NCBI GenBank assembly: GCA_003210075.1
Contig: QCNR01000001.1
Coordinates: 1 to 64,000, forward strand
Origin: Pelagibacteraceae bacterium AG-426-G09
Lineage (GTDB): Bacteria > Pseudomonadota > Alphaproteobacteria > Pelagibacterales > Pelagibacteraceae
DNA: 64,000 nt
Direction: 5' to 3'
The position numbers were made by a program, and so were the translations under genes. Under the pieces are notes generated by a model that was not told where the DNA came from, did not search any database, and was given only the letters and a program-made list of their open reading frames with translations. Below, in pieces: positions 33,188-35,043 of this stretch (position 1 is its first letter; each line of letters starts with the position of its first letter).

Positions 33188-33742
33188 ATGAAAAAAGTTA
33201 GTTTTACAGAAATGAAATATGGAACTAAAGAAGACTATCTATTCTTAGATAAACATGAAAAGAAGTATGCAGGAGAAACCGCAGATAGAATATTAAAGTT
33301 TATGTCATCTCTAAATGAAACACTTGAAGGTTATCAAGTCTCAAGACTTGAACATTCTCTTCAAAGTGCGACCAAGGCTTTTACAAATGGGGAGAGTGAG
33401 GAAATGGTTGTTGCTGCATTGCTTCATGACATAGGTGATGAATTAGCTCCCATGAACCACTCTGAGTATGCGGCAGCAATTTTAAAACCTTATGTTAGTG
33501 AAAAAACACATTGGATAGTAAAAATGCATGGTCTTTTTCAAACTTATTACTACGCACATCATTTAGGTGGAGATAGATTTAAAAGAGAAGAATATAAAGA
33601 TCATAAATATTACCAAGCAACTGTAGATTTCTGCGAAAACTACGATCAAGGTTGCTTTGATCCAAATTTCAAATCTTTACCATTAGATCATTTCGCTCCA
33701 ATGGTAAAAAGAGTTTTTTCTAGAAAACCTTATAGCATTTAA
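33188..33742 (+). CDS. HD-domain protein, possible diiron oxygenase or phosphohydrolase
   Basis: This protein of 184 aa has a metal-binding HD pattern: His56 (RLEHSLQSA), His80-Asp81 (LLHDIGDE), His91 (MNHSEYAA), His114 (KMHGLFQTYY) and Asp153 (ENYDQGCFDP). The family is widespread in alphaproteobacteria and resembles the HD oxygenases PhnZ and TmpB that cleave phosphonates. However, the glutamate of the PhnZ Tyr/Glu gating pair is not conserved: a Tyr stands at that place (Tyr49). The substrate is unknown. It follows purF by one base, and its stop shares a TTAA with the convergent bhmT stop. Confidence 0.65.
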   Translation: MKKVSFTEMKYGTKEDYLFLDKHEKKYAGETADRILKFMSSLNETLEGYQVSRLEHSLQSATKAFTNGESEEMVVAALLHDIGDELAPMNHSEYAAAILKPYVSEKTHWIVKMHGLFQTYYYAHHLGGDRFKREEYKDHKYYQATVDFCENYDQGCFDPNFKSLPLDHFAPMVKRVFSRKPYSI

Positions 33743-34800
33743 GCTTTATTTCCATAATCAATCATATGTTTTGGGATTCTTTTATTTGATCCATACATAA
33801 AGTGATTAGACATATTTTCTCTATATTTACTTGCTGGTACATTTAATCCAACAGCTTCTGCTGTTTCTCTAATCAGCATTGGGTTTGCACCACAACAAAC
33901 ACCTATATAATTAATCCCAAGATCATAAACTTCTTTAGCAAATTTTCCCATTTCGTATCTGTTACAAGACATTGGATCTAGTGCTGTAGGAAAAGTTCTT
34001 CCATGAGGCGAGTCGCAACCACATCCATTTTTATCTGGTAAGTTAAAAAATGTTGGACTTTCTTTTGTTGTTCTATAAGGAATAGGAAGAGCACCAACAT
34101 GACATTTAACTGCTTTTCTAATATCTTTTAAAAAAGGAAGCATGGTATTTGGACCTCTAAAACAATTCATTCCGACTACATCTGCACCTTTTTGTTCTAG
34201 CTCTTTACATGTGTCTACAACTGATTTTCCATCCCTCATAATATTTTCACCCATTGGAGAAATAGTTAAAACAGTTTGTAGTCCTGATTTTTTCATTACT
34301 TCAAGAGCTTTAAAAGCCTCTTCCGCATAATAGAAAGTTTCACCAACTATAATATCCGCTCCCTCATCAACTGCCCATCCAATCATTTCATCAAACATCT
34401 TTTGCACTTCAAGATGAGATTGTTTATCTCCATCTTTCCAAATATTTGAATTAGAAATATTTCCAGCCATTAAATTTGGCTTCATTTCTTTTGGTGTGTT
34501 AAGTGCAACTTTTTTAGCTATTTTTAAAGCAGCTCTATTCAAGGGTTCGAGCAATGCCTCTTTTCCAATTACTCTCATTTTTTCTCTATGACCGTTATAT
34601 GTAAAAGCTTCCACAATATCAGAACCTGCATGTTGAAATTCTTTGTGTAAATTTTCTAATACTTCAGGATGATCTAGAGAAACCATTGGAACAAATTCGC
34701 CTGAAGACATATATCCTCTTCTTTCAATTTCAAATAAAAAACCCTCTGCACAAATTACTGGGCCTTTATTTAATCTATCTTTTAAACTTTCTTTTTTCAT
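33739..34800 (-). CDS. bhmT: Betaine-homocysteine S-methyltransferase
   Basis: The enzyme transfers a methyl group from glycine betaine to homocysteine, giving methionine and dimethylglycine. The zinc ligands are visible as Cys213 (GMNCFRGPN) and Cys302-Cys303 (GVCCGANPM). The N-terminal GPVICAEGFLFEIERRGY fits the homocysteine-methyltransferase barrel. It is 353 aa, shorter than animal BHMT (about 400). The ATG at 34800 has an AAAGGAGAAG ribosome-binding site six bases upstream, which lies in a 9-bp hairpin. Expression is very probably controlled by SAM through the leader at 34801-35034. SAR11 uses this enzyme in place of folate-dependent methionine synthesis. Confidence 0.95.
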   Translation of the reverse strand: MKKESLKDRLNKGPVICAEGFLFEIERRGYMSSGEFVPMVSLDHPEVLENLHKEFQHAGSDIVEAFTYNGHREKMRVIGKEALLEPLNRAALKIAKKVALNTPKEMKPNLMAGNISNSNIWKDGDKQSHLEVQKMFDEMIGWAVDEGADIIVGETFYYAEEAFKALEVMKKSGLQTVLTISPMGENIMRDGKSVVDTCKELEQKGADVVGMNCFRGPNTMLPFLKDIRKAVKCHVGALPIPYRTTKESPTFFNLPDKNGCGCDSPHGRTFPTALDPMSCNRYEMGKFAKEVYDLGINYIGVCCGANPMLIRETAEAVGLNVPASKYRENMSNHFMYGSNKRIPKHMIDYGNKA

Positions 34801-34861
34801 GTTCTTCTCCTTTGCAATTGGAGAAGAAGCTCATAAAATTAAATGAGGGCAAATAAAACAT
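34775..34861 (-). CDS. Upstream ORF between the SAM-V aptamer and bhmT (28 codons)
   Basis: The AAGGAG next to the SAM-V aptamer (34872-34877) is ten bases before an ATG at 34861, which opens a 28-codon frame beginning MFYLPSFNFMSFF and ending with TAG at 34775-34777. It runs through the hairpin over the bhmT ribosome-binding site and overlaps the bhmT start by 26 bases in another frame. The spacing is ideal for initiation, whereas the bhmT ATG is about 70 bases further on. It could couple bhmT translation to the SAM-V switch. Whether it is translated is unknown. Confidence 0.4.
   Translation of the reverse strand: MFYLPSFNFMSFFSNCKGEEHEKRKFKR
34802..34828 (-). promoter_or_regulatory. Hairpin sequestering the bhmT ribosome-binding site
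   Basis: On the minus strand, TTCTTCTCC (34820-34828) and GGAGAAGAA (34802-34810) form a perfect 9-bp stem with a nine-base loop. The 3' arm contains the bhmT Shine-Dalgarno sequence. The same anti-SD arm is complementary to the first AAAGGAGAAG copy (34869-34878) beside the SAM-V aptamer, so the two pairings exclude each other. Confidence 0.65.
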
Positions 34862-34867
34862 GAGACC

Positions 34868-34928
34868 CCTTCTCCTTTTTAGTGCTTTAGCTTTATGCAA
34901 GGTGCACAATATGGTTCAAATCACCCGG
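34868..34928 (-). ncRNA. SAM-V riboswitch aptamer upstream of bhmT
   Basis: The minus-strand RNA holds the SAM-V pattern: a GGTG...CACC stem (34922-34925 with 34901-34904), the core blocks GATTTGAACC, ATATTG and ATAAAGCTAAAGCACT, and a GTGC/GCAC complement for the pseudoknot. An AAGGAG ribosome-binding sequence follows within a few bases, as in a translational switch. SAM-V was described from Ca. Pelagibacter ubique upstream of bhmT. Exact stem limits are uncertain because the two pairings share a base. Confidence 0.85.
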
Positions 34929-34946
34929 TTTTCTTTTATTTATGGT

Positions 34947-34976
34947 AAAAAAAAACCACCTACTAATGCGGTGGTA
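34947..34976 (-). terminator. Intrinsic terminator between the SAM-II and SAM-V aptamers
   Basis: On the minus strand, a six-bp stem (ACCACC with GGTGGT) closes a nine-base loop and is followed by nine T residues (34947-34955). It lies about ten bases after the SAM-II aptamer and ahead of SAM-V, so it can end transcription before bhmT. Being placed here it is most likely the expression platform of the first aptamer. Confidence 0.8.
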
Positions 34977-34983
34977 TGTAGCA

Positions 34984-35034
34984 TCGCTTTAGCAGGATTT
35001 GTATAGCGCCTGCAATTAGATTTAAATCAGCGCT
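34984..35034 (-). ncRNA. SAM-II riboswitch aptamer upstream of bhmT
   Basis: The minus strand reads AGCGC (35030-35034), then GATTTAA, ATTGC and GCGCT (35005-35009), followed by TATACAAATCCTGCTAAAGCG. This is the SAM-II arrangement: a short P1 stem with a long loop, whose 3' tail carrying GCTAAAG folds back as a pseudoknot. AUC in the loop and GAU in the tail can pair, which replaces the usual CC/GG in this helix. A terminator follows, so it probably acts on transcription. Confidence 0.85.
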
Positions 35035-35043
35035 TGTTATTAA

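Follow-up and report, generated by a model that had tools for sequence, protein, structure and literature searches.

The 64,000-nucleotide (nt) stretch analyzed here, referred to as the window, comprises positions 1 to 64,000 of contig QCNR01000001.1 from Pelagibacteraceae bacterium AG-426-G09. On its minus strand, it carries an S-adenosylmethionine (SAM) riboswitch of the SAM-V family ahead of an open reading frame (ORF) that we take to be bhmT, a name that follows papers on the 'Ca. P. ubique' ortholog. The SAM-V aptamer belongs to RF01826, scoring above the curated cut-off of the covariance model (Table 1). It is the second of a tandem pair, and the score of the SAM-II half falls below its own cut-off, so routine annotation would miss that half. 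With 68 bases between the Rfam end of SAM-V and the bhmT ATG, the locus lacks the direct-occlusion layout, in which the Shine-Dalgarno (SD) sequence of the aptamer stands directly before the start codon. Folding and comparison with relatives indicate that the segment between SAM-V and bhmT is probably a strand-exchange expression platform, which would act as an OFF switch with SAM.

Two helices that share one strand, the anti-SD, can be formed in this segment. Helix A joins the anti-SD to SD1, the SD of the aptamer, and closes a hairpin, while helix B joins it by forward pairing to SD2, the SD before bhmT. In the minimum free energy (MFE) fold of a 106-nt stretch, helix A pairs 34875-34866 with 34829-34820 and 34864-34859 with 34835-34830, and it also buries the AUG of a short upstream ORF (uORF). 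The initial annotation had described the uORF behind the AAGGAG of SAM-V, a perfect 9-bp hairpin over the bhmT ribosome-binding site (RBS), and a ten-base repeat, and each was found in the sequence exactly as given. The GGAG at 34875-34872 lies ten bases 5' of ATG 34861, from which a 28-codon frame runs to a stop at 34777-34775, 26 bases inside bhmT. The helix B arms, 34828-34820 and 34810-34802, match perfectly in all 9 bp around a 9-nt loop, and the repeat AAAGGAGAAG has copies at 34878-34869 and 34813-34804.

Table 1. Elements of the bhmT leader, in window coordinates.
Element	Position	Strand	Basis
SAM-II-like aptamer, first of the tandem pair	34972..35043	-	Rfam SAM_alpha, 19 bits (cut-off 36); by eye, the published SAM-II/SAM-V tandem layout
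Putative terminator-like hairpin, CCACC/GGTGG plus nine T, between SAM-II and SAM-V	34947..34975	-	Read from the sequence
SAM-V riboswitch aptamer	34869..34935	-	Rfam RF01826, 78.4 bits (cut-off 41)
SD1 (GGAG), 3' end of SAM-V, in the 5' strand of helix A	34872..34875	-	Sequence; also in insert-type leaders
Helix A, 5' arm: GGAGAAGGGG pairs with 34829-34820, CUCAUG with 34835-34830	34859..34875	-	MFE fold of the 106-nt stretch; pairing in relatives
Shared 3' arm; terminal CUCC (34823-34820) is the anti-SD for SD1 or SD2	34820..34835	-	Folds and relatives
Helix B, 9-bp hairpin over SD2	34802..34828	-	Sequence; predicted with SD1 held unpaired and in the 191-nt fold
SD2 (GGAG), predicted RBS of bhmT	34807..34810	-	Six bases 5' of ATG 34800; same place in relatives
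uORF, 28 codons, 26-base overlap with bhmT, optional element	34775..34861	-	Sequence; equivalent AUG in 29 of 58 distinct leaders
bhmT, betaine-homocysteine methyltransferase, 353 aa, ATG 34800	33739..34800	-	ORF; relatives

A single sequence is weak evidence here, and the significance of the window features comes from relatives. The repeat is weak by sequence alone, with 0.28 copies expected in the window and two or more seen in 5 of 100 shuffles. The 106-nt fold had a z-score of -1.4, and a 191-nt fold that includes SAM-V reached -2.05. The insert hairpin was also considered as an intrinsic terminator and was ruled out, since no T run follows it.

Relatives were collected through bhmT searches of the window's genus (131 of 399 genomes matched, best 30 loci taken), its order (26 of 397 genomes matched at E 1e-150), two other genera (18 of 169 and 1 of 8 genomes), and a named genome collection (80 of 244 loci kept). 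Distant bhmT genes are under-sampled, as two of these searches contributed only the best 30 loci and 80 of 244. In all, 143 bhmT loci were parsed. We excluded 17 in which no SAM-V motif was detected or the upstream DNA was short, and also L060, with a bhmT 52% identical. SAM-V was located by a short motif, and all 20 loci checked with Rfam, drawn from both kinds of leader, scored above the cut-off. Because the locus sets overlap, with the same assemblies present under a code and under a name, counts of distinct leaders are used. The 126 bhmT loci with a SAM-V motif, window included, fell into 43 direct loci, with the start codon 11-19 bases past the aptamer ACUA/ACUG, and 83 with an insert (58 distinct leaders), where this distance is 68-145 bases. 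The order in the insert is SD1 at the aptamer 3' end, a hairpin with the anti-SD at its 3' foot, SD2, and the bhmT AUG. Three longer leaders (L117, L123, and L151), with 135-145 bases from the aptamer ACUA to the start and SAM-V confirmed by Rfam, were left out of the energy and helix counts, giving n = 55. Spacing between the anti-SD and SD2 was 8 or 9 bases in 47 of these 55.

Both helices were found to be conserved when the 55 leaders were counted in a fixed register, for which the anti-SD was set by hand in four leaders (L036, L037, L044, and L111). Helix A was 80% paired over 14 positions, compared with a maximum of 78% in 500 arm shuffles, and contained 84 double-change cells (shuffle mean 41, maximum 81). 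Helix B was 87.3% paired against a shuffle maximum of 86.7%, with 22 double-change cells over the whole helix where shuffles reached at most 15. Double changes were seen just outside the GGAG of helix B, at position 6 (U-A 32, C-G 14) and position 7 (U-A 44, C-G 7), and the variants are GGAGAG/CUCUCC in a genus labelled g5, GGAGAAG/CUUCUCC in the window-like group, and GGAGAAA/UUUCUCC in many others. Of 201 helix A cells that changed among close relatives, 165 still pair, 23 of them by double change, in comparisons that are not independent; L039 and L063, for example, differ by U-A to C-G. Pairing energies of the inner arms averaged -11.0 kcal/mol for native partners and -5.7 for unrelated arms. 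Pairing is still kept in g5 and in L079, where the arms have unrelated sequence, and L174 has lost bases from both arms together with the stem intact. Two further leader alignments (A3 and A4) were read by eye only. What is conserved is the choice of partners: two mutually exclusive helices sharing one strand, as strand exchange demands, with the weak points listed below. The comparison of SAR11 bhmT leaders suggested in the initial annotation thus upheld the stem, which is kept with compensatory changes; the uORF that was to be conserved with it has its start in only 29 of 58 distinct leaders, and its peptide is not kept.

Folding of the distinct bhmT leaders was consistent with a two-state element. 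When SD1 was held unpaired, SD2 was closed in 54 of 55 leaders, compared with 62% of 1100 dinucleotide shuffles, and freeing SD1 raised the openness of SD2 by more than 0.3 in 30 of 55, compared with 12.6% of shuffles. The proposal that one anti-SD arm can pair with either SD copy was borne out, as both helices were available in 0.96 of leaders and 0.25 of shuffles. The energy difference between A and B had a median of -0.5 kcal/mol (interquartile range -2.3 to 2.0), and the mean energies of the two alternatives were near -21 in leaders and near -10 in shuffles. In transcripts ending just past the anti-SD, SD1 paired with it at a probability above 0.5 in 55 of 55 leaders, so helix A should form first without SAM. 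With the aptamer omitted, helix A was favored by 2.3 kcal/mol both in the window and in 'Ca. P. ubique' HTCC1062.

Several observations weigh against strand exchange. Folding was done without pseudoknots, with a ban on SD1 pairing standing in for the SAM-bound state. The double-change count of helix A is weak alone, because a one-column slide of the helix scores 99 against 84 on both-side cell counts. The native 3' arm was better than every unrelated arm in only 24 of 58 leaders, and both the shuffles and the pair comparisons ignore relatedness. RNAalifold on an automatic alignment gave only 6 pairs and -0.05 kcal/mol, which we consider uninformative because the arms had not been brought into register, and we relied on the register-fixed count. 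Near-equal energy of A and B is not special by itself, because the A-B spread was similar in shuffles (2.4 kcal/mol in bhmT leaders and 2.7 in their shuffles; 1.2 and 2.2 for the metY leaders described below), and the difference is that both folds are stable. Helix B, and not A, appears in the best fold of the 191-nt window stretch, in which SAM-V is included with its pseudoknot disallowed. It also wins at equilibrium with SD1 free in many uORF-bearing leaders (most of g5, L032, L033, and L041-L043), so the swap in such leaders needs kinetic control or the uORF.

The mechanism we propose has one anti-SD strand (34829-34820) with two partners, SD1 at the 3' end of SAM-V and SD2 serving bhmT. 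Without SAM, SD1 would be free to pair with the anti-SD once it is transcribed, forming helix A and leaving SD2 open, so that bhmT would be ON. With SAM, SD1 would be taken into the aptamer (P2/P2a), the released anti-SD would close SD2 in helix B, and bhmT would be OFF. Computation shows that the elements are present and conserved and that both pairings are available; the block of helix A by bound SAM, the direction of the response, and a function for the uORF are what we infer. In published work, SAM binding was shown for a bhmT SAM-V RNA of a sequence other than that of the window, loss of 2 (metY) or 3 (bhmT) bases at the aptamer 3' end abolished it, and the short P2a helix proposed there takes in some of the SD (PMC6061858). 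Since helix A uses the SD, and the aptamer 3' end is needed for SAM, helix A and SAM binding should exclude each other.

The SD swap, one of two models put forward initially, is supported. In SAR11 bhmT leaders the two alternative helices persist with covariation, and they turn up again, built from other sequences, in a second genus and ahead of metY. For the latter, 100 SAM-V loci were fetched, 20 from one match list and 80 g5 loci from another, the 80 being a selection without the sites known to lie ahead of bhmT and without some equally scoring ones. These comprised 48 g5 metY loci with an insert (41 distinct), 41 metY and 8 mmuM loci of the direct kind, one bhmT locus with an insert, and two left unassigned by the script (L177, a direct metY locus by another parse, and L265). 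Among the 41 distinct g5 metY leaders, the A-B energy difference had a median of 0.1 kcal/mol, SD2 was closed in 41 of 41 with SD1 held, and it was more open by over 0.3 with SD1 free in 31 of 41. In L188, one arm, UUCGUUCAUUCUUCUCC, has two complements: SD1 plus AUG1 (GGAGAAGAUGAAC) and SD2 plus AUG2 (GGAGAAAAAAUGAACGAA). The g5 metY leaders (L188, L193, and others among L198-L272) are predicted to swap whole binding sites, SD plus AUG.

AUG2 of the g5 metY leaders opens a short frame, ORF2 (MNETIRETVRGKING and variants), that runs into metY. Its frame and spacing are kept: the stop falls at base 8 of metY in all 37 parsed leaders (4 of 41 were unparsed), with a spacing of 40 in 35 cases and 37 in 2. 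We found no clear peptide selection on ORF2, with pairwise differences by codon position of 721/435/872 and variable columns of 6/6/7. The upstream frame at SD1, uORF1, has its AUG in 41 of 41 and a real early stop in four (L202, L204, L220, and L263); L227, L233, and L255 were scored as not open, yet are open to the end of the stretch. At L265, also in g5, SAM-V and an insert-type hairpin precede a gene that the script did not recognize.

The second initial model was ribosome coupling, in which SAM-V would control only initiation at ATG 34861 through SD1, and ribosomes on the uORF would melt the SD2 hairpin and re-initiate at bhmT. A uORF start codon, 3-14 bases past SD1, was found in 29 of 58 distinct leaders: by our own grouping, 4 of 8 window-like leaders, 5 of 5 in the HTCC1062 group, 15 of 15 in g5, 3 of 3 long leaders, and L044 and L084. 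Coupling is favored by the uORF frame being open through the anti-SD in 29 of 29, compared with 20 of 58 when the remaining frames of these leaders are read and 39 of 87 for frames in leaders without the ATG; the relatives are not independent, but about six lineages agree. The stop falls 1-35 bases inside bhmT in 27 of 29. Leaders with a uORF also lean toward helix B, with a median SD2 openness, SD1 free, of 0.07 (n = 26) versus 0.68 in those without (n = 29, raw p 1e-4), in the same direction across nine temperature and length settings (raw p 4e-6 to 0.02). The logic itself is known from the Mycobacterium tuberculosis ppe2 B12 riboswitch (PMC11260477) and has been engineered as ribo-attenuators (PMC5496857).

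As the main mechanism, coupling nevertheless appears unlikely. It is not supported as a general mechanism, because 29 of 58 distinct leaders, among them half of the eight window-like ones (L054, L056, L061, and L106), have no uORF start. In L114 and L174, the uORF stops before bhmT, and the peptide is conserved neither in the window-like group nor among the near relatives L031-L033. Presence of the uORF changed at least 8 times on a bhmT protein tree, where its link to helix B was not significant over 5 independent pairs (8 counting unsupported branches; sign test, median p 0.5). Given the missing starts and the unconserved peptide, we rejected the uORF as a conserved core. Where it exists, coupling is a plausible extra and probably an added route in some lineages: without SAM, ribosomes that initiate at SD1 would strip the anti-SD from SD2 and then restart at the bhmT start codon that the uORF overlaps, giving the same result as the swap by another way. 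There is a hint of a division of labor, with swapping where helix A wins and ribosome-driven opening where helix B wins. No paper containing both 'Pelagibacter' and 'ribosome profiling' was found in the open-licence literature searched. The long leaders L117, L123, and L151 carry 44-48-codon frames that overlap or abut bhmT; a conserved leader peptide was considered for them, but although the frames stay open, L117 and L123 differ, by eye, mostly at non-synonymous sites.

The tree just mentioned was a quick one of 85 rows, with 32 of 82 inner branches weakly supported. On it, direct and insert kinds interchange at least 11 times. The bhmT genes that follow the window-like leaders L054, L056, L106, and L114 belong to other clades. 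Leaders thus appear to be mobile between genes, which suggests that leader and gene recombine. Scanning viral contigs turned up no relative. L071, L158, and L160 have, by eye, a bhmT preceded by a SAM-II-like element and terminator only, with the SD directly after the terminator T run. L275, the second bhmT of its genome (52% identical), has no SAM-V upstream by eye, and that genome has one SAM-V match.

It could also be that the insert is a passive hairpin or drift, and that SAM-II termination alone controls bhmT. The SAM-II-like element and terminator-like hairpin upstream of SAM-V would fit this, as would the 34-fold rise of 'Ca. P. ubique' bhmT mRNA under sulfur limitation (PMC5069961). 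The covariation, the recurrence with different sequence, and the two stable alternatives in two gene contexts argue the other way, and the SAM-II part of a full-length tandem RNA was reported to be unresponsive to SAM in vitro (PMC11508383). We consider this account highly improbable.

Genome G011 was taken to be 'Ca. P. ubique' HTCC1062 because its SAM-V places match the intergenic coordinates in PMC2704228. Its bhmT locus (L062) has the insert layout, with 66 bases from the SAM-V end to the bhmT start; the SD assigned to this bhmT therefore lies at a distance from the gene. A by-eye comparison of printed primer 1 indicates that the bhmT RNA of PMC11508383 is the HTCC1062 sequence. Between bhmT and the next gene, which is osmC by a gene table (PMC5069961), HTCC1062 carries another SAM-V, of the direct kind (L062:1430-1494, minus strand, 57.6 bits). 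The excerpts of PMC2704228, PMC5069961, PMC11508383, and PMC6061858 contain no description of the segment after SAM-V, and SAM-V is not mentioned in a study of whole-riboswitch covariation (PMC13273304). No description of a strand-exchange platform after SAM-V was found in the open-licence literature searched.

SAM-V is cited as simply burying its own SD, and strand exchange would depart from this textbook account. If it is correct, about two thirds of the sampled SAM-V/bhmT loci (83 of 126), including HTCC1062, use strand exchange on a distant RBS, and RNAs that end at SAM-V, such as the 52-nt bhmT aptamer of PMC6061858, lack the real expression platform. The leaders would also form a natural series of two-state elements with and without a coupling ORF in abundant ocean bacteria, making two control routes directly comparable. 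More tentatively, SAM-V may carry a modular exchanger with twin RBSs, in which a second complete RBS follows the aptamer and a single complementary strand directs ribosomes to either a decoy ORF or the gene, the two states being comparably stable. Such a module would have arisen or spread repeatedly (before bhmT in several SAR11 genera and metY in one), with lineages trading thermodynamic swapping against uORF-driven opening; we hold this broader view to be possible but doubtful.

The closest known system is the direct-occlusion SAM-V (43 of 126 bhmT loci; 41 metY and 8 mmuM of the 100 SAM-V loci), which has the same aptamer with the SD in or beside it and is likewise predicted to be OFF with SAM. 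Unlike there, the aptamer SD here would be an exchange partner, with the SD of the gene about 60 nt further on. The 'Ca. P. ubique' SAM-II/SAM-V tandem has the same two aptamers and gene, and in HTCC1062 the insert layout as well. The Sinorhizobium meliloti metA SAM-II riboswitch similarly has an SD in the aptamer, a decoy AUG1, and its true start about 70 nt downstream (PMC9373788). It raises a further alternative for our locus, standby or distant-SD loading, in which 30S subunits bound at SD1 would get to the AUG downstream, the scheme proposed for metA, where the riboswitch SD is needed for a start 74 nt away and AUG1 is not (PMC9373788). For bhmT this seems quite improbable, given that the gene has its own SD2 at normal spacing and a kept two-partner anti-SD for which that model has no need. 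The metA leader also differs in having a terminator between, and its AUG2 region does not start translation outside its context (PMC9373788). The term anti-SD is absent from that paper (PMC9373788). An anti-SD swap would be a possible alternative for metA, and the twin-RBS principle might explain its unexplained need for SD1.

In the M. tuberculosis metE and ppe2 B12 riboswitches, built from a translation initiation region (TIR), an anti-TIR, and an anti-anti-TIR, a purine-rich strand in or near the aptamer likewise frees the start by taking the anti-strand, and in ppe2 a translated uORF (uPPE2) that overlaps the gene shows uORF coupling (PMC11260477). These leaders have a different aptamer and sequence, and in SAM-V the freeing strand would itself be an RBS, with the uORF optional. 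In engineered ribo-attenuators, translation of a short ORF under riboswitch control unfolds a hairpin that covers the following RBS; these devices are synthetic, unlike the SAM-V/bhmT leaders, and the design section describes no second anti-SD partner (PMC5496857). The logic of start site, anti-strand, and anti-anti-strand is thus that of known translational riboswitches, and what appears to be new is a SAM-V platform that uses the aptamer's own RBS as the exchange strand.
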